Below are positions 39,381 to 53,647 of a DNA stretch of 64,000 bases, piece after piece (the first letter of the stretch is position 1; each line of letters opens with the position of its first letter). This DNA comes from Halodesulfovibrio aestuarii DSM 17919 = ATCC 29578 (GTDB taxonomy: Bacteria > Desulfobacterota > Desulfovibrionia > Desulfovibrionales > Desulfovibrionaceae). The position numbers were made by a program, and so were the translations under genes. The stretch is from positions 1,054,001-1,118,000 of the forward strand of contig NZ_ARQF01000021.1 of NCBI RefSeq assembly GCF_000384815.1, given 5' to 3'. The notes under the pieces are model-generated. The model saw only the letters and a list, made by a program, of their open reading frames with translations, was not told the DNA's origin and ran no database searches.

Positions 39381-40058
39381 CTATATCAGGTTAGGTGACG
39401 AAAGTTTTTTCAACGCAATAAAGATTATACAGGAAAAAACGGCCAAAATTGATGCGAGCACCACTGCCCTGTCAAATTCTCCGCTGAACACGGCATTGTA
39501 AATTTCAAGGGACAGCGTATTGGTTTTGCCAATAATATTTCCCCCCAGCATAAGGGTAATACCCACTTCACCCAATCCTCTACCGAGGGCAAGAAACCAG
39601 CCGGTAGCAATACTGCGCCGGATGTTGGGAAGAAGTACCAGCCAAAAGGTTTCCCAGTCGCTTTTACCCAGCACATGGGCTAGTTCCGCCAAACGGCGAA
39701 CATCCCCCCGCAATGCTGTTTCAACAGATTTTACCATAAGCGGCAGCCCCGCAACAAATGATGCGATGACCACACCTGTAAAACTGAAGACTATATCCAC
39801 AGGAAGCGCATGACCGATAAGGCCGGAACGCCCAAGCAGCATCAGCAGCACAAATCCCGTGGCAATAGGTGGAAACACCAGTGGCAGCGTCACAAGAAAA
39901 TCCACAACAGAGCGCATCATGCTTTTTTTACTGGTAAGATAATAGCCAAGCAAAACGCCGCTTACTAAGTGCAGCAAACCAACAAGCCCCAGAGTCTTAA
40001 CAGTAAGATACAAAGGAGCCGTGGTTTGCTGCTCTGATAAAATTGCAACAAAGTCCAT
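39381..40058 (-). CDS. modB: Molybdate/tungstate-type ABC transporter permease
   Basis: 225-residue inner-membrane permease with five to six helices. The cytoplasmic loop motif that docks on the ATPase is present (ELAHVLGKSDWETFWLVLLPNIRRSIATG), as is VTLPLVFPPIATGFVLLMLLG near the N-terminus, both typical of ModB/CysT-like permeases. It starts 5 bases after modA. No ABC ATPase (ModC) follows; the next gene is the DUF429 fusion protein. The anion may be molybdate, tungstate or a related oxyanion. Confidence 0.88.
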   Translation of the reverse strand: MDFVAILSEQQTTAPLYLTVKTLGLVGLLHLVSGVLLGYYLTSKKSMMRSVVDFLVTLPLVFPPIATGFVLLMLLGRSGLIGHALPVDIVFSFTGVVIASFVAGLPLMVKSVETALRGDVRRLAELAHVLGKSDWETFWLVLLPNIRRSIATGWFLALGRGLGEVGITLMLGGNIIGKTNTLSLEIYNAVFSGEFDRAVVLASILAVFSCIIFIALKKLSSPNLI

Positions 40059-40063
40059 ACAGA

Positions 40064-40792
40064 CTACAGTCCATGTTTACGAACGATAGCCTGTGCTTCC
40101 GGCGTGTTGAGGAACTGTAAAAAGTCCTGCTGCTCTTTTTTCTGCGATGCATTGGCAAGCACACCTACAACGATAGAAATCGGGGAATACAGTGAGTCAT
40201 CCACCAACACATATCCGCCGAGCTTATCAGCAACATTCAACGCGTGAGTAAGGTTCAGGAACCCCATATCAACCTCGTTGGTTGCAATGTAGGAAAATAC
40301 CTGAGGAACGGTGGAAACTTCCAGCAGTTTAGGCTGAATAGAAGGGAGCCTGCCACTGGACTGCAAAAATTCACGTGCAGCTTTTCCGTAAATAGCCTTT
40401 TTTGCATCAGGCAGAGCAATGCGACTTACGTGCGGGTTATCCAGATCTGCAACGGTTGATGCCTTTACAGATTTTGAAAATGCCAGCACAAGTTTTCCGC
40501 GACCGAGTTCCTGTGCAGATTGCATCGGAAGATGTGCTCTTTCCAAAAAGCTGCTGTCACCTAGAACCAGACCGACTTTATCTTTCTGTTTCGCCAACGT
40601 GGTCACACGGGCCATATTACCGAAAATAAGGTCAACAGTATGCCCAGTCTTCTGCGTATACGCAGAAGTAAGTGCAGTTACCATTTTTTTATATCCGGCA
40701 CCGGAAGCCAGAACAACAGTATCTGCCCAGCCTGTTGTTACAGATGAAACAAGCAGGAACACGCCCAAGATCGCAATCCGAAGTAAATTCAT
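40064..40792 (-). CDS. modA: Molybdate-type periplasmic binding protein
   Basis: 242 residues with a Sec signal peptide (cleavage likely after TTGWA). The mature protein has VVLASGAGYKKMVTALTSAY, IFGNMARVTTLAKQK, VLGDSSFLERAHLP and GKLVLAFSKS, as in substrate-binding proteins of the ModA group. The canonical ModA N-terminal SAASL-type anion loop is altered to ASGAGYKK, so specificity could differ from molybdate. AAGGAC precedes the ATG. A structured 400-base region lies upstream. Confidence 0.82.
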   Translation of the reverse strand: MNLLRIAILGVFLLVSSVTTGWADTVVLASGAGYKKMVTALTSAYTQKTGHTVDLIFGNMARVTTLAKQKDKVGLVLGDSSFLERAHLPMQSAQELGRGKLVLAFSKSVKASTVADLDNPHVSRIALPDAKKAIYGKAAREFLQSSGRLPSIQPKLLEVSTVPQVFSYIATNEVDMGFLNLTHALNVADKLGGYVLVDDSLYSPISIVVGVLANASQKKEQQDFLQFLNTPEAQAIVRKHGL

Positions 40793-40984
40793 AGTATTTG
40801 TCCTTAGATAGATACAAAAAAAATGACGGTATACTGATCATTTTCTATGTAAGGACAACCATGAAGACAACGGAGTCACGTAAACAATAAAAAACGTGAC
40901 ATTACTCTTACGACGGTTACTACAGGCAAATAGTACGACACAAAAGAATTTCTTCCCTTCTGTTTCTTCCCCCACAAAACTAAA

Positions 40985-41171
40985 TGCCGCCTCCACTATA
41001 TGAGGAGGCGGCAAAGGGCTGCAGGAGGAAAAAACAAGCAGCCGGTACGGAACAATTAGCCACATAAGTTGCATATGCCTCTTTCTGCCACAAGAGGCTC
41101 ATGCAGTTACGTGTCCGAGGTAAATTTGTAATCTGCTTCTGTGTCAAAGAGACACGCGGAGCAGGTTCCGC
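40985..41171 (-). promoter_or_regulatory. Structured leader region upstream of modA
   Basis: Series of hairpins on the modA strand: GCGGA / TCCGC (41156-41171), GTGTC / GACAC (41141-41155), GCCTCTT / AAGAGGC (41077-41098) and a 10-bp stem TGCCGCCTCC / GGAGGCGGCA (40985-41013), the last followed by TTTAGTTTTG. The last stem could end transcription. A molybdenum-cofactor-type riboswitch was considered, but its consensus could not be confirmed by eye. Confidence 0.4.
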
Positions 41172-41225
41172 TGTGGTATTTTTTTATAGGTTACTTGAGT
41201 AGATAGAACTTCTTTGAACTCACAA

Positions 41226-41247
41226 CAAAAGCCTATAAAAATAGGCT
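41226..41247 (-). terminator. Terminator overlapping the end of the universal-stress operon
   Basis: AGCCTAT / ATAGGCT stem with an AAAA loop. On the minus strand it reads into TTTTGTTG. The stop codon of the last operon gene lies inside the stem. Confidence 0.75.
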
Positions 41248-41583
41248 CATAATGTAATCGAGCACGAACCAGCACGCACCTAGCAAGGCAAACAGCAAGA
41301 CAACTTTACCAATTGCATTCTGCGGTTTTACCAGTTCAATCAGCTGCTTTTCGTCATCAATAGACTGCACGGTGTAATAGCGCGGCTTTTCGGACTTCAT
41401 TGCAAACACAACAAGCCCACCCTTTACAACCTGAGACTCAGACAGCACCATATGGTCAAATTTCCGCTGCTCATTTGCGTCTACATCCATAAATGTGTAG
41501 GCGCTATACTGCATATTCTCCTGAGAAAGAGTATCCAGTTCTTCTACAGTCTCACATTCTTCTGCTGCTACACTTACGCTCAT
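41233..41583 (-). CDS. Small C-tail-anchored membrane protein, last gene of the operon
   Basis: 116 residues. The N-terminal 90 residues are soluble and acidic (ECETVEELDTLSQENMQ; DANEQRKFDHMVLSES) and are followed by one hydrophobic helix (IGKVVLLFALLGACWFVLDYIM). It has no signal peptide, so the soluble part faces the cytoplasm. No family was recognised. The start overlaps the stop of the upstream universal-stress gene (ATGA), so translation is coupled and a joint function with that protein is likely. Confidence 0.75.
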   Translation of the reverse strand: MSVSVAAEECETVEELDTLSQENMQYSAYTFMDVDANEQRKFDHMVLSESQVVKGGLVVFAMKSEKPRYYTVQSIDDEKQLIELVKPQNAIGKVVLLFALLGACWFVLDYIMSLFL

Positions 41584-42443
41584 TGGGCCTGCTCCTTTAC
41601 GATAAGTACGGGACACGCACTGCTATATACAAGTTTATGTACTACCCCGCCCACAAGAAGGTGGGAAAGCTTACTGCGTGAACACGCCCCTATGACAATC
41701 AACCCTGCATCACTCTTCTGAGCCTCTTCTACAAGAACCTCGTGCGGAGGATTGCCGTAGCGCACTGCCACATCAAAGTCTCTCACATCAGCAGAAGCAA
41801 CGATATTTTTTATAGACTCCACGGCCAGTTCTGTTTTCTCGACAGCGGCACTTTCTACAACCGGAGATAGGCTGAACGCCTCCATATCCATTTCGTAAGC
41901 GATTCCAGCCGTCAGCCGTGAGCCATACCGTTCTGCCAGAGCACAAGCCTGACGTGCGGCAATGCCAGCTTCTGCACTTCCGTCATACGCTAAGAAAATG
42001 TTCTGCACTGACAATTCCTTGTCTCCGGTAATGATCAGCAGATCAATATCCGAATGACGCACAACCGTACCGGCAACTGAGCCGATCACAACAGAATGTA
42101 ACAGCTGGGAAGAGTGTGTACCAAGGGCAACTATGTCACTGCCAAGAGCTTCTATCTGCTCTGCAAGCACATCCGCAGGGTTGCCCGTTAAAAAATGTCC
42201 CCGCACCTGCACACCATCTGCTTTGCACATGGCGACAGCATCATTAAGAGCGTTACGAATGCTGTCGTACATTTCGTACAACACACTTGCATCGCCTTGG
42301 ATACGCAAATTCCCCTGATATTCCGGACAAACCGTAACAATATCAACTATGGAGTTTTCAGAACGTGCAAAGCGTGCTGCCTGCCGAACTATGTCCATTG
42401 AGGATTCTGCGCCGTCGAAGGCCACAAGCATTTTTTTATACAT
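41580..42443 (-). CDS. Tandem universal stress protein (two UspA domains)
   Basis: 287 residues in two UspA repeats. Repeat 1 (about 1-140) begins MYKKMLVAFDGAESSMD and ends GTHSSQLLHSVVIGSVAGTVVRHSDIDLLII. Repeat 2 (about 145-287) begins NIFLAYDGSAEAGIAARQA and ends GACSRSKLSHLLVGGVVHKLVYSSACPVLIV. The Gly-rich ends fit the ATP-binding G-x2-G-x9-G pattern only approximately. The ATG at 42443 is chosen because GAAGGG lies upstream at good spacing. It follows the TauE exporter gene by 36 bases and overlaps the next gene by 4. Confidence 0.92.
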   Translation of the reverse strand: MYKKMLVAFDGAESSMDIVRQAARFARSENSIVDIVTVCPEYQGNLRIQGDASVLYEMYDSIRNALNDAVAMCKADGVQVRGHFLTGNPADVLAEQIEALGSDIVALGTHSSQLLHSVVIGSVAGTVVRHSDIDLLIITGDKELSVQNIFLAYDGSAEAGIAARQACALAERYGSRLTAGIAYEMDMEAFSLSPVVESAAVEKTELAVESIKNIVASADVRDFDVAVRYGNPPHEVLVEEAQKSDAGLIVIGACSRSKLSHLLVGGVVHKLVYSSACPVLIVKEQAQ

Positions 42444-42479
42444 TCGTAACGCCCTTCTATACTTAGATGAGATCAAGCT

Positions 42480-43547
42480 TTATACGTTGGTACCAGCAGC
42501 CATTGCCATCTGACGTTCTTTTCTGCGTCCTACAATCATTGCTTTAAGAATGATGAATGCACCAACACCGAGAGCAAAACACATAAGACCGAAGCTGGTT
42601 TTACTCATGCTGGAGATAAGAGTTGCATCCCAGTTAATAGCTTCAAGTTGCTTGAGATATTTAGGAATTGCAAGACCGCGGCTGAAAGCAACGATTAACA
42701 TAATGGTCGCCATTACGTATTTGATTACATAGTCTTTTACGTACGTAGTACCGATAGCACCAAGCTGTACGCCGAAGAGAGAACCTGCGAGGATGATGAG
42801 GGTAAGGCGAATATCTACCATTCCGTAGAATGCCCAGATAAGTGTACCGCCGAGTCCCATAACAAACGCTACAACAAGTTCGGTTGCGGATGCCATAAGG
42901 CTGGACATACCGATGATGTAAATCATACCCGGTACACCTGCGAAACCGCCAACAGCGATGGTTGCTGCAAGCAGACCAGCGGCAAGGCCAACCGGTGCGG
43001 TAAACCAGAATGAAATGCGGATGTTGCTGCCTTTAAAGTTTACCATCGGCCACAGTTCAATGCTCTGCAATTTCTTAGCAATGTTGGTTACTTTTTCTTC
43101 GCCACCATTACGTTTAGTGGTGATAGCATCTTTCATAACAAAGCTGCCCACTGTAACCAGAACAAATACAAACGCTAAGGAAACATACAGGTTTGAACCG
43201 GCAGGGCCCCATAGTTCCAGAATAAGCTTCTGGATCTGGATACCAATCTGAACACCGACTTCAGCAGAAACGCCGACAATCAGTCCCAATTTGATATCTA
43301 CCTGCCCGTATTTGTAGCGTTTTAATGCACCTACAAGAGCTTTAGGAAATTTATGACACATGTTACTTGCTACAGCTACAGGTCCCGGAACACCGAGACT
43401 CATCATACCCGGAGTAAGAACAAATGCACCACCGGAGCCGATAAAGCCACTTACCAGTCCGCCAACAAATCCAACGAAGAACAAGAACAGCACACCCACC
43501 AGAGACAGGTCTACAAAGCGTGCGCCATCTAATAATAAATCATGCAT
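42480..43547 (-). CDS. TauE/SafE-family anion exporter
   Basis: 355-residue membrane protein of the sulfite/sulfonate exporter family. The two signature repeats are seen: FVGGLVSGFIGSGGAFVLTPGMM in the N-terminal half and AATIAVGGFAGVPGMIYIIGM in the C-terminal half. Eight or so helices are predicted, with a larger charged loop near residues 140-170 (MKDAITTKRNGGEEKVTNI). In a sulfate reducer the substrate may be sulfite, sulfate or an organosulfonate, but this is inference. AGGAG precedes the ATG. Its neighbours on both sides belong to the same operon. Confidence 0.9.
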   Translation of the reverse strand: MHDLLLDGARFVDLSLVGVLFLFFVGFVGGLVSGFIGSGGAFVLTPGMMSLGVPGPVAVASNMCHKFPKALVGALKRYKYGQVDIKLGLIVGVSAEVGVQIGIQIQKLILELWGPAGSNLYVSLAFVFVLVTVGSFVMKDAITTKRNGGEEKVTNIAKKLQSIELWPMVNFKGSNIRISFWFTAPVGLAAGLLAATIAVGGFAGVPGMIYIIGMSSLMASATELVVAFVMGLGGTLIWAFYGMVDIRLTLIILAGSLFGVQLGAIGTTYVKDYVIKYVMATIMLIVAFSRGLAIPKYLKQLEAINWDATLISSMSKTSFGLMCFALGVGAFIILKAMIVGRRKERQMAMAAGTNV

Positions 43548-43571
43548 GGTATATCTCCTGACTACTTGCCA

Positions 43572-43883
43572 CTAAGCATTAACGGTGGCGCGGGTGCGGG
43601 TCTCTTTACGAGGGGTTGCTTCTGCAGCCTTAGTCTTTCTGCCTGCACTTGAAGAAGCTTCAATGCCAAGGGCTGTCCAGACGTTGCTGGCAAAGTTGCC
43701 ATGAACATAGGAGAACAAAAATACGGTAGCAACAGGCAGCAGACAGTATGCGCCACCTTTTGCGTACAATTCTACCATTGGATCTGCATAGTAAAACGCA
43801 GCAGAGTATAAAGCGACACTTACTGCGCCAAATAACAAGGCATTAATTTTAGCTTTTTTCTTTCTATCATGAGCGGTATTCAT
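43572..43883 (-). CDS. Small two-helix membrane protein of the operon
   Basis: 103 residues with a basic N-terminus (HDRKKKAKINA), two hydrophobic helices (about 14-33 and 43-63) and a Lys/Arg/Thr/Ala-rich C-terminal tail (GRKTKAAEATPRKETRTRA). The pattern suggests both ends in the cytoplasm. It lies 24 bases upstream of the exporter gene, so it may be an accessory subunit. AAGGAG is well placed before the ATG. No family was recognised. Confidence 0.75.
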   Translation of the reverse strand: MNTAHDRKKKAKINALLFGAVSVALYSAAFYYADPMVELYAKGGAYCLLPVATVFLFSYVHGNFASNVWTALGIEASSSAGRKTKAAEATPRKETRTRATVNA

Positions 43884-43916
43884 AACTTCTCCTTCAGTAC
43901 TACCTGCGCTATGGTA

Positions 43917-44084
43917 TTACGCACGCATTTGGGGTCTTTTTCTTGCGTTCTCTGAAGCCTGTTTTTTCGATGTTGCTTTCTTTCTTTTCTGCTCGTTGAC
44001 GATAAGACTTGCCATCTCACTATCGCCACTCTCAGCAAATACGACTGCTACAAATAATCTTTCTAGCGTCTTAAACAGATTCAC
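43917..44084 (-). CDS. 55-residue basic protein sharing a module with the operon's first gene
   Basis: Starts with GTG behind an excellent AAAGGAGGGCGTT ribosome binding site. The N-terminal half reads MNLFKTLERLFVAVVFAES and continues GDSEMASLIVNEQKRKK; the C-terminal half is strongly basic. The first part aligns with the N-terminus of the product of 44141-44629 (LE then FAE-x-G, an acidic pair, Ala and KK), suggesting a shared short helical module. It is too short for most gene callers. It sits in line with the operon, 33 bases before the two-helix membrane gene. Confidence 0.7.
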   Translation of the reverse strand: MNLFKTLERLFVAVVFAESGDSEMASLIVNEQKRKKATSKKQASENARKRPQMRA

Positions 44085-44140
44085 AACGCCCTCCTTTTTC
44101 TAAAGCGTAGGTCTCTGTATTACTCAGCAGTTCCGTTCTG

Positions 44141-44629
44141 CTAAGTATTCGTCATAAAAAAATAGGGCACATCTATGTGTAATTGAGCCGGTTTGCATTC
44201 CTCGCATCTTAGAATAACAAACTCTACTTCTCTCGTTTCATTGCAAATATTTCGCACTGCCTCGTTAAAGCTCGAAAACACAACAACCTGCCTAGCATGT
44301 ATGGTTGCTATTGAATTTGGTAATTTCGCGACCTCCTCGCTGAAAATTCGTTTAAAAGAACGGTTCGAAGATTCAAGAAACTGTTTGCCCAGCTGCTCTG
44401 CTTTTGCTTTACCCTGCACGCATGCAAACAAAAGTTCGCACTGCAAACGTGCTGCAATTGGCAACGCAGCCTGAATAACCTGCCGTTCGGCTGGCTCTCC
44501 GTCATAGGCGACGATAATCTTTTTCTGCTTATCATCGGCCTTCATCATGTCCAAAGCCGTATCCCACTCGCCTGCTTCTGCAAAAGCGGCTGCTGTGGTT
44601 ATGGACTCCAACATTTTCATTATCTTCAT
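44141..44629 (-). CDS. Universal-stress-like protein with short N-terminal extension, first gene of operon
   Basis: 162 residues. An N-terminal helical module (MLESITTAAAFAEAGEWDTALDMMKADDKQKK) precedes a single UspA-like domain that begins KIIVAYDGEPAERQVIQAAL and includes LLFACVQGKAKAEQLGKQFLE. The usual Gly-rich ATP loop at the C-terminus is missing (VEFVILRCEECKPAQLHIDV), so nucleotide binding is doubtful. It is first on a minus-strand operon whose sigma-54 promoter lies at 44672-44688 and whose enhancer-like sites lie further up. Confidence 0.8.
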   Translation of the reverse strand: MKIMKMLESITTAAAFAEAGEWDTALDMMKADDKQKKIIVAYDGEPAERQVIQAALPIAARLQCELLFACVQGKAKAEQLGKQFLESSNRSFKRIFSEEVAKLPNSIATIHARQVVVFSSFNEAVRNICNETREVEFVILRCEECKPAQLHIDVPYFFMTNT

Positions 44630-44671
44630 GAATTATCTCACCATTCTCCTCGTGGGTATTGCTCACTAGTT

Positions 44672-44688
44672 AGCAGCATTCATGCCAA
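44672..44688 (-). promoter_or_regulatory. Sigma-54 promoter of the universal-stress/exporter operon
   Basis: On the minus strand, TTGGCATGAATGCTGCT. GG and GC are exactly 10 bases apart and it differs from TGGCACG-N4-TTGCW at two positions. The predicted transcript start is about 44661, giving a 32-base leader to the start at 44629. Confidence 0.8.
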
Positions 44689-44750
44689 CTAATAATATAC
44701 TGTTTTATTTAACTTTATTCTAAAGGTGCGTTTTTGCAGCATCAAAAACT

Positions 44751-44765
44751 GTTACAAATTACAGC
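44751..44765 (-). promoter_or_regulatory. Enhancer-like site A
   Basis: GTTACAAATTACAGC, 12 of 15 positions as in site C. Centred about 97 bases upstream of the predicted transcript start. Likely contacts for the sigma-54 activator encoded at 46930 (inference). Confidence 0.6.
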
Positions 44766-44780
44766 AAACACAACTCTTCC

Positions 44781-44795
44781 GCTGTAATTTGCAGC
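44781..44795 (-). promoter_or_regulatory. Enhancer-like site B
   Basis: GCTGTAATTTGCAGC. Its reverse complement matches site C at 14 of 15 positions. Centred about 127 bases upstream of the predicted start. Confidence 0.7.
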
Positions 44796-44833
44796 ATTTC
44801 GTTTGCAACATTGGATGATTTCATAGAATCATT

Positions 44834-44848
44834 GCTGCAATTTACAGC
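44834..44848 (-). promoter_or_regulatory. Enhancer-like site C
   Basis: GCTGCAATTTACAGC inside the longer inverted repeat TTGCTG-N7-CAGCAA. Centred about 180 bases upstream of the predicted start and 70 bases before the divergent Lon-receiver gene, which it may also control. Confidence 0.7.
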
Positions 44849-44911
44849 AACAGAATGCGTAGATTTACAAATATCAACCTGATATACATAGATAAACAAA
44901 AGGCGGGAAAG

Positions 44912-46933
44912 ATGAGATTTTTTAGCAAACCAGAGGATGTAGCTCCTGTACCGGAACCGACACTGACCATGCAGGAAGAGCTGCGTATCGCCGTCGAGAA
45001 GTCAAAGCTTCCTGAAAACGTACGGCATATAGCACTCGAAGAACTCACCAAGCTGGACAGAACAGATTCTTCCTTTGCTGAATTCGGGCTGGGCGTAACC
45101 TATGTAGAATTGCTACTCTCTCTTCCGTGGAATATTTCCTCGCAGGATAATCTGGAACTTGAGCACGCCGTCACAGTTCTCAATCAGGAGCACTTCGGCC
45201 TGAATGGCGTTAAGCAGCGCATTCTGGAATATCTGGCTTCCAACATCACATGCCATATCAAAAAAAGCACTGTGCTTGTTGTGGATGATGAACAAATTTC
45301 CCGCGACAATATGGCCTATTCCCTCGACAAACTTTCCTGCGAAGTGCTTACGGCATCAAATGGTCTGGAAGCTGTGGACATTCTGGAAGAACGCAATGTG
45401 GACTGCATTGTAACCGACCTCAAAATGCAGAAGATGGACGGGCTGGAACTGCTCAACTATGTTCAGGAAAAATGGCCGGACACTAAACTTATTATCGTTA
45501 CGGGGTACGCAACCGTTGATAACGCCATCGGTGCGCTTAAAAAAGGCGCGTTGCACTACCTTCCTAAACCCATCAATTTAGAAATTCTTCGCAATGCCGT
45601 TCAGGAAATTCTTGAACAGCAAAAGCAAGCGTGCTCCGTTTCCGGCCCTATCCTCTGCTTCACAGGCCCTCCGGGAACCGGAAAGACATCCATCGGCAAA
45701 TCCGTTGCAAATGCTCTCTCCAGAAAATTCATCAGGTTGTCTCTTGCGGGCATGCGTGATGAAGCCGAGCTTCGCGGGCACAGGCGTACGTACGTAGGCG
45801 CAATGGCAGGTCGCATCATCAGCGAACTGAACAAATGCGGCGTGAATAACCCGGTATTTATGCTGGATGAAATAGATAAGATAGGTCAGGACTTCAGGGG
45901 GGATCCCGCCTCTGTCCTGCTGGAAATTCTTGACCCTGAACAGAACAGACACTTTTTAGACTACTATCTTGATACTCCGTTCGATCTTTCAAAGGTAATG
46001 TTTATTACAACGGCAAACATGGTGGACAATCTTCCGGCACCATTGCGCGACAGAATGGAGATTATTCCCTTCTCCTGCTACACACTGAACGAAAAAAAAC
46101 AGATCGGGCTGGATTATCTTGCCCCGCGTCAACTGCGCACACTCGGATACTCCCAAAACGAAATCGCTTTCACACCGGAGGCCATGTCCACCCTCATTTC
46201 CGGCTACACCAGAGATGCGGGACTGCGCAGCGTGAACAGGGAAATAGGTAATGTCTGCCGCAAGATCAATTTACAGATTCTGCAACAGCTCAAAAAGCCG
46301 CCAATCACTATTTCAAGCGAAGACATTGTCTCCCTGCTCGGATATGAACGATATACATTTGAGGCCGCTACTGCGCAGCCGCTTATCGGTGTCACAACGG
46401 GACTGGTGTGGAGTGAATACGGCGGGCAGCTTATCTACATTGAGACAGCCAAAATGAAAGGCAGCGGTCGATTGATTATGACCGGCTCACTGGGAGAAGT
46501 TCTGAAAGAATCCGCCCAGACTGCACTCAGTTTTCTGCGGAGTAATGCCACAAAATTCTCAATAGATGAAAATCTGTTCGAGCAAAGGGATATTCATGTG
46601 CACATCCCTGCCGGTGACATCTCGAAAGATGGCGCATCAGCAGGGGTAACAATCGTCATGGCATTATTGTCACTGCTTACCAAACGGCCGGCAAGAAGGG
46701 ATGTTGCGCTGACAGGGGAATTCACCCTGAGCGGAAGGATATTACCTGTAGGCGGACTGCGTGAGAAAATTCTGGCAGCACAACAGGCCGGTGTACGTGT
46801 AATTCTGCTGCCGGAACGCAATAAAAAGGAAGTTCAGGTAATGAATGATGAGGTGCGTAATGCAGCGGAACTGCACTTTGTATCGTCCATCAACGAAATA
46901 GTTGAGCACGTGTTGCTGCCATCGGCAGACTAG
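44912..46933 (+). CDS. Lon-type ATP-dependent protease with inserted response-regulator receiver
   Basis: 673 residues. The N-terminal Lon substrate-binding domain is absent. Residues about 15-110 match the helical linker of Lon (LPENVRHIALEELTKL, YVELLLSLPWN, FGLNGVKQRILEYLA). Residues 118-235 are a receiver domain with acidic pair Asp125/Asp126, phosphoacceptor Asp169 (IVTDLKM), Thr197 and Lys219. An AAA+ module follows with Walker A GPPGTGKT (252-259), Walker B VFMLDEID and Lon-specific RGDPASVLLEILDPEQN. The S16 protease domain has the catalytic Ser576 (DGASAGV) and Lys619 (GGLREKIL), so the protease dyad is intact. The ATG at 44912 is chosen for GGCGGGAAAG upstream. It converges with the activator gene, and the stops share CTAG. 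Confidence 0.9.
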   Translation: MRFFSKPEDVAPVPEPTLTMQEELRIAVEKSKLPENVRHIALEELTKLDRTDSSFAEFGLGVTYVELLLSLPWNISSQDNLELEHAVTVLNQEHFGLNGVKQRILEYLASNITCHIKKSTVLVVDDEQISRDNMAYSLDKLSCEVLTASNGLEAVDILEERNVDCIVTDLKMQKMDGLELLNYVQEKWPDTKLIIVTGYATVDNAIGALKKGALHYLPKPINLEILRNAVQEILEQQKQACSVSGPILCFTGPPGTGKTSIGKSVANALSRKFIRLSLAGMRDEAELRGHRRTYVGAMAGRIISELNKCGVNNPVFMLDEIDKIGQDFRGDPASVLLEILDPEQNRHFLDYYLDTPFDLSKVMFITTANMVDNLPAPLRDRMEIIPFSCYTLNEKKQIGLDYLAPRQLRTLGYSQNEIAFTPEAMSTLISGYTRDAGLRSVNREIGNVCRKINLQILQQLKKPPITISSEDIVSLLGYERYTFEAATAQPLIGVTTGLVWSEYGGQLIYIETAKMKGSGRLIMTGSLGEVLKESAQTALSFLRSNATKFSIDENLFEQRDIHVHIPAGDISKDGASAGVTIVMALLSLLTKRPARRDVALTGEFTLSGRILPVGGLREKILAAQQAGVRVILLPERNKKEVQVMNDEVRNAAELHFVSSINEIVEHVLLPSAD

Positions 46934-48297
46934 CTTTCAAGCCCGAGCCGCTTCATTTTTCTCCACAGGGAACCTCTGTTCAGACCCAGCAGTTCTGCTG
47001 CACGGCTTTTGTTGCCGTCTGTCTGTTCCAGTACCCAGCTAAGGTAGCGGCGTTCATTGTCCTCCAATGACACTATATCATCAAATTCAACAGGAGCTTT
47101 AGGTACTGCTGCCGGAATCAGATGGTCTCCCCACAAATCGGGAGGTAACTGCGCAACGCGAATAACCCTTCCGTTACAGAGCACAACTGCGCGTTCCATC
47201 ATATTTTCCAGTTCCCGTACGTTACCGGGAAACGCATAGTCACTCAGGATATTGAGCACGTCATCGTCAATATCGGTAATGTTTTTCTTGAACACGGACG
47301 CAAACTTGTTCACAAAAAAACTGGCCAGCAGCGGGATATCGTCTTTGCGCTTACGAAGCGGAGGAACCTCCAGCGTTATTACGTTAAGCCTGTAATACAG
47401 GTCTCGACGGAACGTCCCATGCTCTACCATGCTCAGCAAATCTCTGTTTGTTGCGGCAATAATGCGCACATCTACCGGCACCTCAATTGTGCCGCCTACC
47501 CTGAGCAGTTTTCTGGTTTCCAGAACCCTCAGCAGGTTTGCCTGCATACTCAGCGGCATATCCCCTACTTCATCCAGAAAAAAAGTACCATGATCCGCAG
47601 ATTCAAGAAGCCCTTTCTTGGCACTGTTCGCGCCTGTAAAGGCTGATTTTTCATGCCCGAACAGTTCATTTGCCAGCAATTCTTCATTAAATGACGCGCA
47701 GTTAATGGCAAAAAACAAGTTGTTTCGTCTAGGACTTCCCATATGCAGGGCTTTAGCCACCAGTTCTTTGCCTGTTCCCGTTTCCCCTTGAATAAGCACA
47801 GTACATCCAACAGCCGCAACCTGATCAATCTGATGCTTCAGCTGAATAATAGGAGCACTGTTGCCGATTATCCTGTCGGAACCGGATGCCTCAAGCTGAG
47901 TCCTCAACATGGCGACTTCTTCTTTCAGTCTCTTTTTTTCCAATGCCTTCTGGGTCAGCAACGTAACTTCATCCAGACGTACAGGCTTTGCCAGATATTG
48001 AAATGCCCCACTCCCCATAGCCTGCACGGCGCTATCCACAGTGGCATATCCTGTTAATATAATAACCTCTGTGTCCGGCGATGTTACCTTGATAAACTGA
48101 AGCAACTCAAGCCCGCTGATATCGGGCATACGCATATCGGTTAAAACAACATCGAACTGCTCTTTTTCGATAGCCGCCTGAGCCTGTGCCCCGTTCTCGA
48201 CAGCGGTTACAGTCGCTCCCTGCTGAGTTAACACATGCGCCAAATTTTCCCGAGCAATCAGCTCGTCTTCAGCAATCAATATCTTTGCATCAATCAT
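46930..48297 (-). CDS. NtrC-family sigma-54-dependent response regulator
   Basis: 455 residues. The receiver domain (about 1-120) has Asp10/Asp11-type acidic residues (IAEDE), phosphoacceptor Asp in VLTDMRMPD and Lys in LAKPVRLDE. The AAA+ domain (about 140-370) has Walker A GETGTGKEL, the sigma-54 contact loop as EKSAFTGAN (Ser where most have Gly in GAFTGA), Walker B GTFFLDEVGDM and RRDLYYRLNV. The C-terminal Fis-type helix-turn-helix is DGNKSRAAELLGLNRGSLWRKMKRL. AGGGCG precedes the ATG. It is encoded after the histidine kinase on the same strand and is the obvious candidate to bind the sites at 44751-44848. Confidence 0.95.
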   Translation of the reverse strand: MIDAKILIAEDELIARENLAHVLTQQGATVTAVENGAQAQAAIEKEQFDVVLTDMRMPDISGLELLQFIKVTSPDTEVIILTGYATVDSAVQAMGSGAFQYLAKPVRLDEVTLLTQKALEKKRLKEEVAMLRTQLEASGSDRIIGNSAPIIQLKHQIDQVAAVGCTVLIQGETGTGKELVAKALHMGSPRRNNLFFAINCASFNEELLANELFGHEKSAFTGANSAKKGLLESADHGTFFLDEVGDMPLSMQANLLRVLETRKLLRVGGTIEVPVDVRIIAATNRDLLSMVEHGTFRRDLYYRLNVITLEVPPLRKRKDDIPLLASFFVNKFASVFKKNITDIDDDVLNILSDYAFPGNVRELENMMERAVVLCNGRVIRVAQLPPDLWGDHLIPAAVPKAPVEFDDIVSLEDNERRYLSWVLEQTDGNKSRAAELLGLNRGSLWRKMKRLGLES

Positions 48298-48384
48298 AAC
48301 GCCCTACAGTTACTTTTGAGCCGAATGCCACCAAACATAATGACGACTAACAGCCCAGCGTGAATGACTCTTTCAGGCAACACT

Positions 48385-49806
48385 CTAATCGTGGTGTCTC
48401 AATGGTAAATCTATATAAAATCTGGAGCCGGCACCGAGTGTACTTTCAACACGGATTTCGCCGTCAAACTCTTCGATGATGCCATACGCAACAGAAAGTC
48501 CAAGCCCTGTACCTTCTCCCACATCCTTGCTGGTAAAGAACGGGTCAAATACTTTAGGCAAATCCTCTTCAGGTATGCCTTCGCCGGAATCGGACACAAC
48601 AAGTGTGACAAAGTCCTCAACCTGCTCTTTGAGAACAGAAATAGAAATGAAACCTGAAGTCTGTTCTTTCATAGCCTGCGTGGCGTTGATAATAAGATTA
48701 ATCAGCACCTCGCCCATTCTCTGCGGATCAAGGTGCACAAAAATATTGTCCGGTACGTTGACCTCAAGAGTAACACCCGAGGGTATCTGCGAAGAAACAA
48801 GTTGAACCGCGTTATCCACAACGTTCTTTAATGAAACAGTACGCAGCGACAACTCTGTGCATCGTGCAAATTCCAATAAGCCGCGTACAATATCCCGTGC
48901 GCGTGCTGTCTCTGTTTCAATATTATCAAGGAGCTTTTTGGCGAAGGGATTAATGGATTCCTTCAGTTCGCCCTGAAGGATTTGTGCTGAAGTGGAAATA
49001 TTATTGAGCGGGTTGTTTACCTGATGTGCGATTCCCGCACTCAAGGTACCGATAGAGGACATTTTCTGCGCCTGTACTAACTGCGCCTGTCGATGCTCCA
49101 GCTCGGAAACCATACGGTTAAAGGCAATCTGTACCTTGGATATTTCATCAGACATATTTTTCACATCTACATGGGCAAAATTCCCTTGCGCAATTTGCGT
49201 TGTGGTTTCTTCAATAACCTTCAGCGGCCCCACAATGCGTTTAGTGATAAAATACAGGGTACACAGAAATAAAAATGTCACTGCCAAAATAGAGAACAGC
49301 AGCTGCTTACGCAATTGTCTGTTAATTTTAAGAATATTAGCACGTTCCAAGTCCGCAATACTTTGCGCTTTAAAAACAAGCTCCTGCCCTATTTCACGCA
49401 GCTTTCCAACTTCGTCATCAAGATTACGTTTCTGCTTGGTTGCAGCTGCATACATGGCAACAATACGGTCTCGATACTCGGAAATAGTTTTTTTCAACTC
49501 AATGATGCTGTCCGTCATAGCTTCATCAAAATTCAAATCAGCATGTCCACCCAGCAATTCAAGCGTCTCTTCTATTTCACTCAATGCAAGCTGGTAACTG
49601 CTCTTTTCTCCATACAGCAGATAGTTCTTTTCCTGCCGACGAAAATTCAAAATAGAGCTTTCGACATCATCAATAAATTCAACAGAGTATGTTTTATCTT
49701 CAACAAGCAGCAACTGTTTGTAGGAAAAGAGTGTCTGCCCCCCTAAACAAATCGAGAGGATGAGAAAACCTGCGATAATCCGCTGTCTAACATTAAGTCT
49801 CAACAT
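48385..49806 (-). CDS. Membrane sensor histidine kinase
   Basis: 473 residues. N-terminal membrane helix (about 8-28), a periplasmic helical sensor of about 140 residues (ILNFRRQEKNYLLYGEKSSY, resembling helical-bundle ligand domains), second helix (about 170-190), and HAMP domain (VGPLKVIEETTTQIAQGNF). The dimerisation domain carries the phosphorylated His in GTLSAGIAHQVNNPLNNI. The ATPase domain has NLIINATQAM, DSGEGIP, FFTSKDVGEGTGLGLSVAYG. AGAGGAGGGTGG lies before the ATG. It is encoded 87 bases upstream of the NtrC-type regulator, which is its likely partner. The receiver in the Lon hybrid is a second possible target. Confidence 0.93.
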   Translation of the reverse strand: MLRLNVRQRIIAGFLILSICLGGQTLFSYKQLLLVEDKTYSVEFIDDVESSILNFRRQEKNYLLYGEKSSYQLALSEIEETLELLGGHADLNFDEAMTDSIIELKKTISEYRDRIVAMYAAATKQKRNLDDEVGKLREIGQELVFKAQSIADLERANILKINRQLRKQLLFSILAVTFLFLCTLYFITKRIVGPLKVIEETTTQIAQGNFAHVDVKNMSDEISKVQIAFNRMVSELEHRQAQLVQAQKMSSIGTLSAGIAHQVNNPLNNISTSAQILQGELKESINPFAKKLLDNIETETARARDIVRGLLEFARCTELSLRTVSLKNVVDNAVQLVSSQIPSGVTLEVNVPDNIFVHLDPQRMGEVLINLIINATQAMKEQTSGFISISVLKEQVEDFVTLVVSDSGEGIPEEDLPKVFDPFFTSKDVGEGTGLGLSVAYGIIEEFDGEIRVESTLGAGSRFYIDLPLRHHD

Positions 49807-50044
49807 CCACCCTCCTCTTGAAAGTCATACAAGACATTGAATTTATTATATCAGAATAAAAAAGACTATATTGTGATTTTTAGCACAAAGTCAAGTTTCA
49901 CAACAACAATTTATGACTGTTTGCAATCAAAAATACAGCTGTCTGCACACCGTATACACAGCCCTTCCTCCAAGTAAGCAAGATTGTACAATACGGTAAA
50001 GCACACCGCAGCTACCTTTAAAAAAAACACTAAGGAGAATATCA

Positions 50045-50425
50045 ATGAATGTTTCTACTATTGCAAACAATACTGTATACTTTTCACATGGTTCAAAAGA
50101 TCTTACTGACGTGGCGTGGGTTGACCATCCCAAGTTCAAAGGGGTTCAACTGAAACTTTTGCTCTCCGGTGCGGACACTGGCAACACCTTCAGCTCTCAC
50201 CTTATAAAAGTTGACCCCTTATGCGGTCTGGAAACACACTGCCATGAAGACCAGAAAGAGTTGCATGAAATTGTAGACGGGCACGGAGAATGTGTTTTAA
50301 CCGGAAAAACAATCTGTTATACTTCAGGAGTTATGACGGTTATCGACAAAGGTGAACTCCATCAGGTGAAGGCTGGCTCTGACGGACTTCTCATGCTGGC
50401 AAAATTTTTTCCACCGGCTGCTTAA
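50045..50425 (+). CDS. Cupin-domain protein
   Basis: 126-residue single-cupin protein. The first cupin motif is degenerate but visible (CGLETHCHEDQKELHEIVDGHGECVLTG, quoted in part: THCHEDQKELHEIVDG), with three His and two Glu as possible metal ligands. The second motif is VIDKGELHQVKAG. TAAGGAG precedes the ATG. It is followed after 18 bases by an AraC-type regulator, so both are cotranscribed. The ligand or substrate is unknown. Confidence 0.85.
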   Translation: MNVSTIANNTVYFSHGSKDLTDVAWVDHPKFKGVQLKLLLSGADTGNTFSSHLIKVDPLCGLETHCHEDQKELHEIVDGHGECVLTGKTICYTSGVMTVIDKGELHQVKAGSDGLLMLAKFFPPAA

Positions 50426-50443
50426 TGATGTACGTGGGCAAGG

Positions 50444-51262
50444 ATGGCGAAAGAGAAAAGCGAAATACGCACTATCAACCTTTCTGAAGAGTTAGGGATT
50501 GAGGCAATATTCGGCAAGCGGATACGCAACACCTTTCAACGCCACATCCACGCAACATACCTCTTTGGTCTTGTTGAGAAAGGAACGCGTGACATCACAT
50601 GCGGCGGCTGTACAGAATCCGTTTCTGAACAGGAATCGTTTGTGCTGCAACCTGCACAGGTTCACACATGTACATGCAGTGCCGATCATTGCTACAGCAT
50701 TCTCAGCATTAAGCCGGAATTTGTGGAAGCACTTGCAGTGCAGCTCTTTGGAATCGGGCATCCACCACCTTTCTTTCCATATGTCTGCTGCAGGGACAAA
50801 CTGCTTTCTAAACAACTTCAGGCTATCTTTACCCTTATAAAAAAACAGGGCATGAGCGATCATGCCCTTGCTTCAATACAACGCTATATCTCTACCCTGC
50901 TACAGCATCAGCCGCCGATACCGCACAAAATCACACAACAGGATGAATCTGTTGTAGACAGCACCTGTGAGTTCCTTCAAAAGAACCATGCACAAAAGCT
51001 GCCTCTTTCGTCCCTTGCGGAACACGCCTGCCTAAGTCCGTTCCATCTCCAACGGCTTTTCACAAAACGCATGGGAATAAGCCCTAACGATTACCTGCAA
51101 GCCCACCGTGTTGCCGAAGCACGGCAACGATTACGCATGAACATTCCGCTAAGCGAACTTGCACTCTCGTTAGGCTTTTACGATCAAAGCCACTTCACGC
51201 GCACATTCCGGAAAGTAATGGGCGTATCCCCGGGAAGTTATCGTAAAACTAATTCCAACTAG
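50444..51262 (+). CDS. AraC-family transcriptional regulator
   Basis: 272 residues. An N-terminal cupin-like sensing domain (RHIHATYLFGLVEKGTRDITCGG; FVLQPAQVHTCTC) contains many cysteines and histidines, which may sense metal or redox state (inference). The C-terminal DNA-binding domain (about 175-272) has two helix-turn-helix units: LSSLAEHACLSPFHLQRLFTKRMGISPNDYL (in part) and the family signature LSLGFYDQSHFTRTFRKVMGVSPGSYR. It is cotranscribed with the upstream cupin gene, which may be its target or helper. A terminator follows. Confidence 0.92.
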   Translation: MAKEKSEIRTINLSEELGIEAIFGKRIRNTFQRHIHATYLFGLVEKGTRDITCGGCTESVSEQESFVLQPAQVHTCTCSADHCYSILSIKPEFVEALAVQLFGIGHPPPFFPYVCCRDKLLSKQLQAIFTLIKKQGMSDHALASIQRYISTLLQHQPPIPHKITQQDESVVDSTCEFLQKNHAQKLPLSSLAEHACLSPFHLQRLFTKRMGISPNDYLQAHRVAEARQRLRMNIPLSELALSLGFYDQSHFTRTFRKVMGVSPGSYRKTNSN

Positions 51263-51276
51263 TACGTATCCAAGAG

Positions 51277-51322
51277 AAAAGCTCCCCCGACCGGTACACG
51301 GCTGAAGGAGCTTTTTGTTTTT
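51277..51322. terminator. Terminator between the AraC gene and the decarboxylase gene
   Basis: AAAAGCTCC / GGAGCTTTT stem with a 21-base loop, followed by TTTTTG on the plus strand and TTTTC on the minus strand. It serves both converging genes. Confidence 0.8.
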
Positions 51323-51349
51323 ATATCAAAACGGGTAGAAACGACACGT

Positions 51350-53647
51350 CTACACCTTCACACACAGTGTTTTGAAATAGGTCTTGCCGCCCTTTTTGAA
51401 CCGTTCAACACCATGTATGTCACTCTCGTAGCCCGGGAACGTGTTTTCAAATGCTTCCCGAGTCCTCAGGTATTCCAGAATCGGCTGTGCGGCGCTGTCC
51501 ACAGTTTCCCCGCCCATAAGAATCGGGATACCCGGAGGATACGGAACAAGCATAACGGCTGCCACACGGTTATGAAGATCTTTGAGTGCAACATATTCCA
51601 CATTCTTTTTAACCACTTCCTGATAGGCATCAGACGGCTTCATAACTTGGTGCGGTATAATCTCAAACGCATCATGCATTTTTCCCAGCAGGTCATGTTC
51701 TTTGTAATAGGCATGGATTGCGTCACAATGCTCCCGCAATCCCAGATGCTGATACGATTCCGGATACTGCTTTACAAGATCCGGGAAAACATCCTGCATC
51801 GGCATGTTCTTATCGTAGCATTCTTTAAACTTCAGTAATGCCGTCAGTAACGTTCCCTGCTTGGCCTTTGTCGTACCTATGGAATTAAGCAGCAGGAACG
51901 AATAATAATCTGTCTTTTCACACACAATACCGTGCCTGATTAAATAGTCTGTCACGATCATAGCCGGTATGCCTGACGACTGGTACGACCCGTCTAAATT
52001 CAATCCCGGTGTGGTAATTGTCAACTTGATGGGATCGAGCATAACGAAATTGTCTTCAATATCAGTAAATCCATGCCAGTTATTTCCAGCATCAAGCACC
52101 CACGGTTCCTGCGTCGTGCTCAGATACGTTGCCGGAACCTTTGTGAACGGAACAAGCGCATGCTCAAACTCTACGTCCTCCGGTTGCCACATGGAAAAGA
52201 ACCAACTGCCTTTCTCTTTCATTTCCGCCGCAATACCGGCAATTTTCTGCCTCAGCACCACCGCAGCATAAATACAATCAGAAAGAAGAATTGTGCCGCT
52301 GTCTTCCATTATCTTTGTGGCAACATCCAATGATGCAATCATACTGTACTGAGGAGATGTAGAGCCATGCATCATATATGATTCGTTCATTTCAGCCTGA
52401 TCGATCTTCGTATGGCTGCCGTGTTTTACATGCAGCATGGACGACTGGGAAAATGCTGTAAGAAGCTTGTGCGTTGACTGAGAGCAGAAGATCGGCGGGT
52501 GTTTTTCATGCGGCGTTTCCGCCATTCCAAAATGATTTGCATATATTGGATGAAACTTTGCGTACGCATACCATGCTTCGTCAAAATGCATGTTTTTAAC
52601 GTTCTTCTCCAACTGCTCCTTGATAGTCGAAACATTGTAGCAGAGACCATCATACGTCGAGTTTGTAAGGGCAGACATAACAGGCTCGGCACGCTTTTTC
52701 GCATCCGGAATAATCGGGCTTTTTTTGATGTTCTGCTGAATTGTCTCTTTGCTGAACTCTTTGAGCCTGCACGGGCCTATTATTCCGAGCTGGTTGCGCC
52801 GCGGCTGCATGTAGACAGGATAAATATCTGTGATAACCATGGAGTAATTCAGAGATTTATGACAGTTTCTGTCCACAACGGCTATGTCATCACGCACCGC
52901 CTGCGAACGCCATATTATCTGATTTGCATTCGAGGTACCGTTAAGCACATAAAACGTTAAATCTGCCCCGAATACTTTTGCAGACTTTTGTTCTGCATCT
53001 CCTACCACTCCGCTATGATCGAGCAGCGACCCAAGCTCCGGTACGGAGATGGAGAGGTCTGCCCTGAAAACATTTTCCCCGAAAAACTTATACATCCCGA
53101 CTCCGGCCGGACTTTTCAAAAAGCCCTCGCCGCCCATATGCCCCGGAGTATGCCATGCATACTTATATGCCTCGGCGTATTGAACCAGCGTCGAAAAAAA
53201 GACAGGGTTAATCTGTTTAATATATTCAAGCAGCAGGGTTTCAATCCTTCCTGCCAGAAAATCAACAGTATCCGCGTGCTTCCATAGCAACTCATCAAGC
53301 ATTGCCAATAGGTCAGTTGCAATACTGTGCCGCCCTGCACTGTCCGTCAGCAGACAAACCGGAATACTCTTGTTTCGTGCCCGAATCTCTTTCAGCAACG
53401 TCTCCGGTCTTCCACACTGAATTTTTGTTTCATTCCCGATTTCCCAGTCGATAACAATCACACCCAGATCCGCACGATTATGCACGATACTGGCAGCATC
53501 GTCATAACAATACGCCCGAATCACGCTGCAATTCTGCTCTGTAATAAGAGCATGTTCCAACTCGCGCATTCTGTTACCTGCATCATTATTTGCATCAAAC
53601 AGGCTGGATACAATAAGCACCGGCCAATCTACTTTTGTAAGTTTCAT
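51350..53647 (-). CDS. Inducible-type Arg/Lys/Orn decarboxylase (AdiA-like)
   Basis: 765-residue PLP-dependent decarboxylase of the large acid-resistance group. The N-terminal wing domain resembles a receiver fold (about 1-130). The PLP domain has YAWHTPGHMGGEGFLKSPAG, TFYVLNGTSNANQI, the PLP-binding lysine in CSQSTHKLLTAFSQSSM and ESYMMHGSTSPQYSMIASLD. The C-terminal domain ends the protein normally. Length is close to AdiA (about 755) and above CadA/SpeC types (about 715-730), so arginine is the favoured substrate, without proof. GGAG precedes the ATG. It follows an amino acid antiporter gene by 40 bases. Confidence 0.9.
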   Translation of the reverse strand: MKLTKVDWPVLIVSSLFDANNDAGNRMRELEHALITEQNCSVIRAYCYDDAASIVHNRADLGVIVIDWEIGNETKIQCGRPETLLKEIRARNKSIPVCLLTDSAGRHSIATDLLAMLDELLWKHADTVDFLAGRIETLLLEYIKQINPVFFSTLVQYAEAYKYAWHTPGHMGGEGFLKSPAGVGMYKFFGENVFRADLSISVPELGSLLDHSGVVGDAEQKSAKVFGADLTFYVLNGTSNANQIIWRSQAVRDDIAVVDRNCHKSLNYSMVITDIYPVYMQPRRNQLGIIGPCRLKEFSKETIQQNIKKSPIIPDAKKRAEPVMSALTNSTYDGLCYNVSTIKEQLEKNVKNMHFDEAWYAYAKFHPIYANHFGMAETPHEKHPPIFCSQSTHKLLTAFSQSSMLHVKHGSHTKIDQAEMNESYMMHGSTSPQYSMIASLDVATKIMEDSGTILLSDCIYAAVVLRQKIAGIAAEMKEKGSWFFSMWQPEDVEFEHALVPFTKVPATYLSTTQEPWVLDAGNNWHGFTDIEDNFVMLDPIKLTITTPGLNLDGSYQSSGIPAMIVTDYLIRHGIVCEKTDYYSFLLLNSIGTTKAKQGTLLTALLKFKECYDKNMPMQDVFPDLVKQYPESYQHLGLREHCDAIHAYYKEHDLLGKMHDAFEIIPHQVMKPSDAYQEVVKKNVEYVALKDLHNRVAAVMLVPYPPGIPILMGGETVDSAAQPILEYLRTREAFENTFPGYESDIHGVERFKKGGKTYFKTLCVKV

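Follow-up and report, generated by a model that had tools for sequence, protein, structure and literature searches.

Which regulator, and through which DNA elements, controls the operon that diverges from a Lon-protease response regulator gene in Halodesulfovibrio aestuarii? The 282-bp gap between the two transcription units (44630-44911 of the window, i.e. of the whole 64,000-nt stretch analysed) contains one -24/-12 element and three palindromes, termed A, B and C. Sigma-54 activators of the NtrC family use palindromic enhancers upstream of a -24/-12 promoter, and an earlier note on this DNA had proposed that an NtrC-type activator encoded nearby binds the three palindromes. Judged from the observed sequence elements, their conservation, the co-occurrence of the module's genes and the covariation of regulator and site, the gap is very probably a control region, in which a sigma-54 promoter and palindromes bound by the regulator encoded at 48297-46930 would drive a USP/TauE operon.

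The divergent gap and its neighbouring genes

To one side of the gap lies the gene for the Lon-hybrid response regulator (44912-46933, plus strand), in which Pfam recognizes a short N-terminal part, a receiver, AAA, Lon lid and Lon protease domains and which corresponds to DVU3303 of D. vulgaris Hildenborough. Its longest open reading frame opens at 44855, 57 bp too early, and the start is very likely the ATG at 44912, given that this codon and its ribosome-binding site are conserved in the genus alignment. On the minus strand and convergent to lon are the NtrC-type response regulator (46930-48297; corresponding to DVU3305) and a histidine kinase (48385-49806; HAMP, HisKA and HATPase; corresponding to DVU3304). 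The regulator resembles NtrC-family activators in its receiver, sigma-54 AAA+ and Fis-type HTH domains (Pfam) and in the palindromes 97-180 bp upstream of a -24/-12 element, and differs from them in the half-site and in a loop that reads SAFTGA in place of GAFTGA (SAFTGA or AAFTGA among the nine genus members).

To the other side, on the minus strand, lies the operon. Its six genes—a count that includes a 55-aa open reading frame with a GTG start—encode a UspA-like protein of 162 aa (gene 1, 44141-44629; Usp match below the Pfam cut-off), the 55-aa small protein (gene 2, 44084-43917), which has an AxFAEaGe-type motif in common with gene 1, a 103-aa protein without a Pfam match (gene 3, 43572-43883), a TauE/SafE (sulfite-exporter family) permease (gene 4, 42480-43547; Pfam TauE, 2.3e-34), a tandem universal stress protein (gene 5, 41580-42476; Pfam Usp, 1e-42, two stretches) and a 127-aa product without a Pfam match (gene 6, 41233-41616). 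A terminator-like hairpin lies near gene 6 (41248-41229), and such hairpins occur at chance number in the region. Rfam returned no match in 40000-51500 at the gathering threshold.

The -24/-12 element, TGGCATGAATGCTGCT, runs from 44687 to 44672 on the minus strand, and both the coordinates and the 10-base GG-GC spacing claimed for it by the earlier note were borne out. Placing the start 12 nt after the -12 C predicts transcription from about 44661, the position from which all site distances are counted here. Compared with the TGGCAC/TTGCW context, GG-N10-GC is exact, and the C at position 6 and the T at -14 are not kept. The window contains 47 matches to the -24/-12 pattern at up to two mismatches versus 45.6 expected, i.e. 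the element is at chance on sequence alone, and its significance therefore has to rest on conservation. Matches to TGGCACNNNNNTTGCW in the window were likewise at chance number, and no sigma-54 element was found on the lon-hybrid side of the gap.

The palindromes were found at the distances proposed for them, with centres about 97 (site A), 127 (site B) and 180 bp (site C) upstream of the predicted start, at 44758, 44788 and 44841, respectively. Sites B (GCTGCAAATTACAGC, 44781-44795) and C (GCTGTAAATTGCAGC on the minus strand, 44834-44848) are exact; site A (GCTGTAATTTGTAAC, 44751-44765) is a degenerate palindrome with two mismatches, which makes the description of three matching sites a generous one. 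The genome-wide motif search that had been suggested returned B and C as the sole exact matches to GCTGYAADTTRCAGC in the 3.5-Mb genome. Allowing up to one mismatch yields four matches in the window, all of them due to B and C, which count once per strand; 100 dinucleotide-shuffled sequences gave 0.18 on average, and one of them reached four. The broader pattern GYTGYANNNTRCARC matches the genome exactly at four positions, which are B, C and two adjoining a paralogous regulator. Places of site-A quality are not rare, as the genome yields 96 rows at up to two mismatches versus 38 for the pattern read backwards, and a further loose match of this type lies inside gene 1 (44451-44465). That a -24/-12-like string merely happens to stand near three loose inverted repeats could draw on these loose matches and on the chance-level frequency of the sigma-54 element, but the two exact palindromes stand far above the shuffles and conservation across genera already refutes this explanation, to which we assign a negligible probability.

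Site C had also been described as close to the divergent Lon-hybrid start. There are 63 bases between C and the likely start at 44912. Between C and lon lies a second perfect palindrome, ATATCAACCTGATAT (44871-44885); apart from the window, only its four closest relatives (L116-L119) largely keep this stretch.

Conservation of the promoter, its upstream sites and the operon's cargo

Nine of the ten genus genomes encode the Lon hybrid; promoter and site B are retained in every one of the nine. In the alignment of these loci the TGGCAY and TGCT blocks are retained with their spacing (9/9), site B, 127-131 bp from the predicted start, departs from GYTGYANNNTRCARC by at most one mismatch (9/9), as does site C, at 179-183 bp, in eight loci; in the ninth locus (L123), C has three mismatches to GCTGYAANTTRCAGC. 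Site A comes within one mismatch of GYTGYANNNTRCARC in three of the nine. The tenth genome (G076) has a Lon match only at the level of ordinary Lon (best E 7e-143), and searches of it returned no regulator match above 48% identity (the best being the other, paralogous regulator), no TauE above 34% and no GCTGYAWWWTRCAGC site. As far as coordinates show, exact GCTGYAWWWTRCAGC sites are confined to the Lon locus in seven of the nine Lon-hybrid genomes; G129 and G131 have one such site each at the Lon locus, and in G285 one of two genus-class sites is on another contig.

Beyond the genus, 297 genomes of the order, taken from a larger group, were searched, and 101 had a Lon-hybrid match at E <1e-180, well separated from the matches to ordinary Lon (about 1e-150). 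The resulting set, the window plus 100 other loci, spans 25 genera. We scanned -900 to +100 of lon for sites with up to one mismatch to GYTGYANNNTRCARC. Absence of sites upstream of orthologous operons had been named beforehand as a possible refutation; they are present in 87 of the 101 loci, including each of the nine Lon-hybrid loci of the genus, with 171 sites in the 100 kb upstream of lon, compared with 38 in 1.27 Mb taken from these 101 loci. No site was detected by this pattern in the other 14. A sigma-54-like pattern, TGGCAY-N6-TGN[AT], in which the -12 C is left free, occurs on the operon strand in 74 of the 101 loci and on the lon strand in two, where the rate in the rest of the loci predicts 1.3 per strand; the last base of the -12 part was freed once early scans had been inspected, though the controls (opposite strand and remainder of the loci) were counted with the identical expression. 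By this expression 27 loci have no element. For 63 loci a distance from the predicted start to the first upstream site is available; it is 85-131 bp in 46 of them and 183-394 bp in the other 17. Outside the order, the match covers the receiver domain in 13 of 80 genome_contigs loci, and ten of these have sites, one of the ten (L036) being apparently on the same contig as L117.

These counts bear on the alternative that the sites mainly serve the divergent lon-hybrid gene, as autoregulation through site C, with the sigma-54 element incidental. Site C is indeed the one nearest lon and is kept in eight of the nine genus loci, and in one other genus (g2) all ten loci have sites and none the sigma-54 element. 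The element, however, stands at a fixed distance in every Lon-hybrid locus of Halodesulfovibrio and almost always on one side across the order, and Kazakov 2015 (PMC4641369) assigns the D. vulgaris sigma-54 promoter to the USP-type operon DVU3302-3298 and marks DVU3303-3305 as without one. We regard this alternative as very improbable and retain the reading of a sigma-54 promoter that would drive the USP/TauE operon.

A hand-weighted sigma-54 consensus score was discarded, as it separated the strands poorly (mean best 9.7 on minus, 9.5 on plus; 9.1 for mononucleotide shuffles). Outside the genus (L124-L215), the -12 GC has T, A or G for C in 61 of the 65 loci with an element. The idea that the missing C is special to the Lon-locus promoter was dropped: in six genomes, exact TGGCACGNNNNTTGNW matches are often without it as well, with C at -12 in 0/10 (G044), 1/8 (G160), 6/15 (G183), 4/9 (G116), 2/5 (G152) and, in the window's own genome, 2/6 matches, some of which are chance occurrences, since TGGCACGNNNNTTGNW read backwards gives 1 to 5 per genome.

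With respect to cargo, the stretches of the 101 loci contain a TauE transporter in 56 cases (>200 bits), a CitMHS/SLC13-like one in 40 (>300 bits), neither in five and both in none, figures that denote presence nearby within the stretch and not proven membership of the divergent operon at each locus; in most loci of genus g51, TauE lies about 3.7 kb away. The CitMHS/SLC13-like query was the protein of L180 with TrkA-C domains, encoded after the element. The first gene product of L180 gave no significant Pfam match, so that a Usp part is not apparent in that group. The module's cargo hence seems to include an anion-type transporter, be it TauE or a CitMHS/SLC13-like symporter. This agrees with chlorate phenotypes reported in D. 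vulgaris, where DVU3303-3305 are described as detrimental and the putative anion transporter DVU3299 as important (PMC10102598).

The AxFAEAGE-type motif recurs in several small or UspA-like operon proteins, in the window for instance at 44629-44560 and 44084-44000. Within 3.5 kb and on the strand of the operon, 45 of the 101 loci together have 60 matches (0.175 per kb versus 0.024 elsewhere), counted with an expression that was built after examples had been seen and that admits some matches which look unrelated. One possibility is that the motif marks these proteins for interaction with, or degradation by, the Lon hybrid encoded next door.

Candidate binders of the palindromes

The kind of system found here is already known, and the binding prediction can be said to have been tested, in essence, in the relative D. 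vulgaris. All components of the DVU3298-DVU3305 module are present, i.e. the Lon hybrid, the histidine kinase, the NtrC-type regulator and a divergent Usp-type/membrane-protein operon, which, as there, has a predicted sigma-54 promoter, with none recognized on the lon side. According to Rajeev 2011 (PMC3333781), an in vitro DAP-chip study, DVU3305 has its own operon and DVU3302-3298 among its targets, and also DVU2822-2825 and DVU3334-3339; the same source describes the site as conserved in most genomes that have both a DVU3305 ortholog and a Lon hybrid, reports induction of the module by high pH, heat shock and stationary phase, and suggests that the Lon hybrid is a protease switched by its receiver. 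The loop of DVU3305 is listed as GAFSGA in PMC4641369. The present locus differs from that of D. vulgaris in that its kinase-regulator pair converges on lon and stands outside the lon operon, and in that the exact motif marks a single target region. The window scan returned no site near the start of the kinase-regulator pair, so the regulator is not expected to control its own gene directly via these sites. Our searches of the literature on Lon-type response regulators and on Halodesulfovibrio with sigma-54 found nothing on this locus.

What is new here is an apparent joint change of the regulator and its sites in this genus. For a quick tree, 98 regulator sequences were truncated ahead of the recognition helix, and the root was set on the paralog described below; the Lon-linked regulators, that of the window among them, fall in one clade (84 rows, SH-aLRT 99), inside which the genus forms a clade of its own (100). 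One of the 84 rows (L235) came from the paralog search, and DVU3305 itself is not in the tree by name. A strong full-length regulator match within the stretch exists in only 84 of the 101 loci; 18 loci were dropped from the tree, 17 with weak, partial or absent regulator matches in the stretch and L180, whose helix reads IDRVS, by the helix expression. The helix of the window's regulator, LNRGSLWRK, is found in all nine genus members, and the other 74 in the tree read IDRVS (48), IDRAS (25) or IDRAT (1). At the sites, position 2 of the half-site is C in 43 of 56 genus half-sites and T in 261 of 320 elsewhere. The pairing here is thus GCTGCA with LNRGS, in contrast to GTTGCA with IDR[V/A]S in most other loci compared. 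A joint change of the helix from IDR[V/A]S to LNRGS and of the half-site from GTTGCA to GCTGCA is suggestive; being a correlation of one event on the tree, in one genus, it carries no statistical proof. Against a strict rule linking helix and site, some half-sites of genus g51 read GCTGCA alongside an IDRAS helix. L231 and L234, with an INRAS helix, were considered as a second such event and set aside, as they sit on a separate branch of the tree; neither the site pattern nor the 15-bp palindrome list gave a GCTGCA-type site behind them.

The genome of the window also encodes a second NtrC-type regulator (L216:123-1472, contig C20), and its two exact GTTGCANNNTGCAAC places lie just downstream of this paralog. 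The segment L216:1501-1700 (G000:C20:257791-257892 and downstream) contains three GTTGCANNNTGCAAC-type sites and a sigma-54-like element, TGGCACGACATTTGGA, beyond which a hairpin with a T run was seen by eye, in the window's genome only, before the next gene. All ten genus genomes have the paralog, each with three such sites (up to one mismatch) and TGGCACG-N4-TTGGAT behind it; G145 has one further exact GTTGCA-type place on a different contig. The layout resembles that of the small-RNA targets reported behind DVU0679 and DVU0653, a likeness of arrangement, and possibly a regulated small RNA is encoded downstream of the paralog. Rfam gave no match in L216 at E up to 0.1.

Might the palindromes of the gap then serve another activator or repressor, with the adjacent NtrC-type protein acting elsewhere? 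The genome has many activators (90 first-look candidates from a search with this regulator), the C20 paralog itself adjoins GTTGCANNNTGCAAC sites, and in D. vulgaris DVU2394 is reported to target DVU3298-3305 too (PMC3333781). Yet the sites, the Lon hybrid and the regulator occur together in nine genomes of the genus and are absent together from the tenth, the helix covaries with the site, the exact GTTGCA-type places of the window's genome are found beside the paralog only, and DVU3305, the D. vulgaris counterpart of the regulator, was mapped to both operons of this region according to the same source. We consider another binder acting in its stead unlikely. These genus-level patterns and the D. 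vulgaris mapping support the NtrC-type regulator as the predicted binder, as the earlier note had it; it need not be the sole one, given what is said of DVU2394.

Proposed mode of action and its bearing on the family

For this species, we infer binding, phosphorylation, looping and activation as follows. The gap at 44630-44911 would control a three-component stress module of histidine kinase, NtrC-type regulator and Lon-protease response regulator. Upon phosphorylation, dimers of the regulator (48297-46930) would occupy sites B and C, and more weakly the additional site A, and assemble into oligomers; DNA looping would bring these to the sigma-54 RNA polymerase at 44687-44672, turning on the USP/TauE operon. 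Activation by looping from a phosphorylated regulator is taken over from the NtrC family. These sites probably influence the divergent lon-hybrid gene as well, chiefly through C. In the genus, the regulator's helix and the half-site would have moved in concert, the latter from GTTGCA, the state of the family, to GCTGCA.

It is conceivable, if somewhat doubtful, that in this shift the Halodesulfovibrio regulator switched specificity and kept off GTTGCANNNTGCAAC-type sites, with one base in each half-site separating the targets of the two paralogs (GCTGCANNNTGCAGC versus GTTGCANNNTGCAAC). The literature on paralog insulation that we searched held nothing bearing on the Lon-hybrid locus.

The module, so far described chiefly in a single model sulfate reducer, can now be traced across 25 genera, with conserved promoter and enhancer geometry. 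Within this family, Halodesulfovibrio offers what appears to be a compact instance of coupled change in a response regulator and its sites; if the specificity switch is true, it would be a natural example of paralogous regulators insulated by a single base per half-site.
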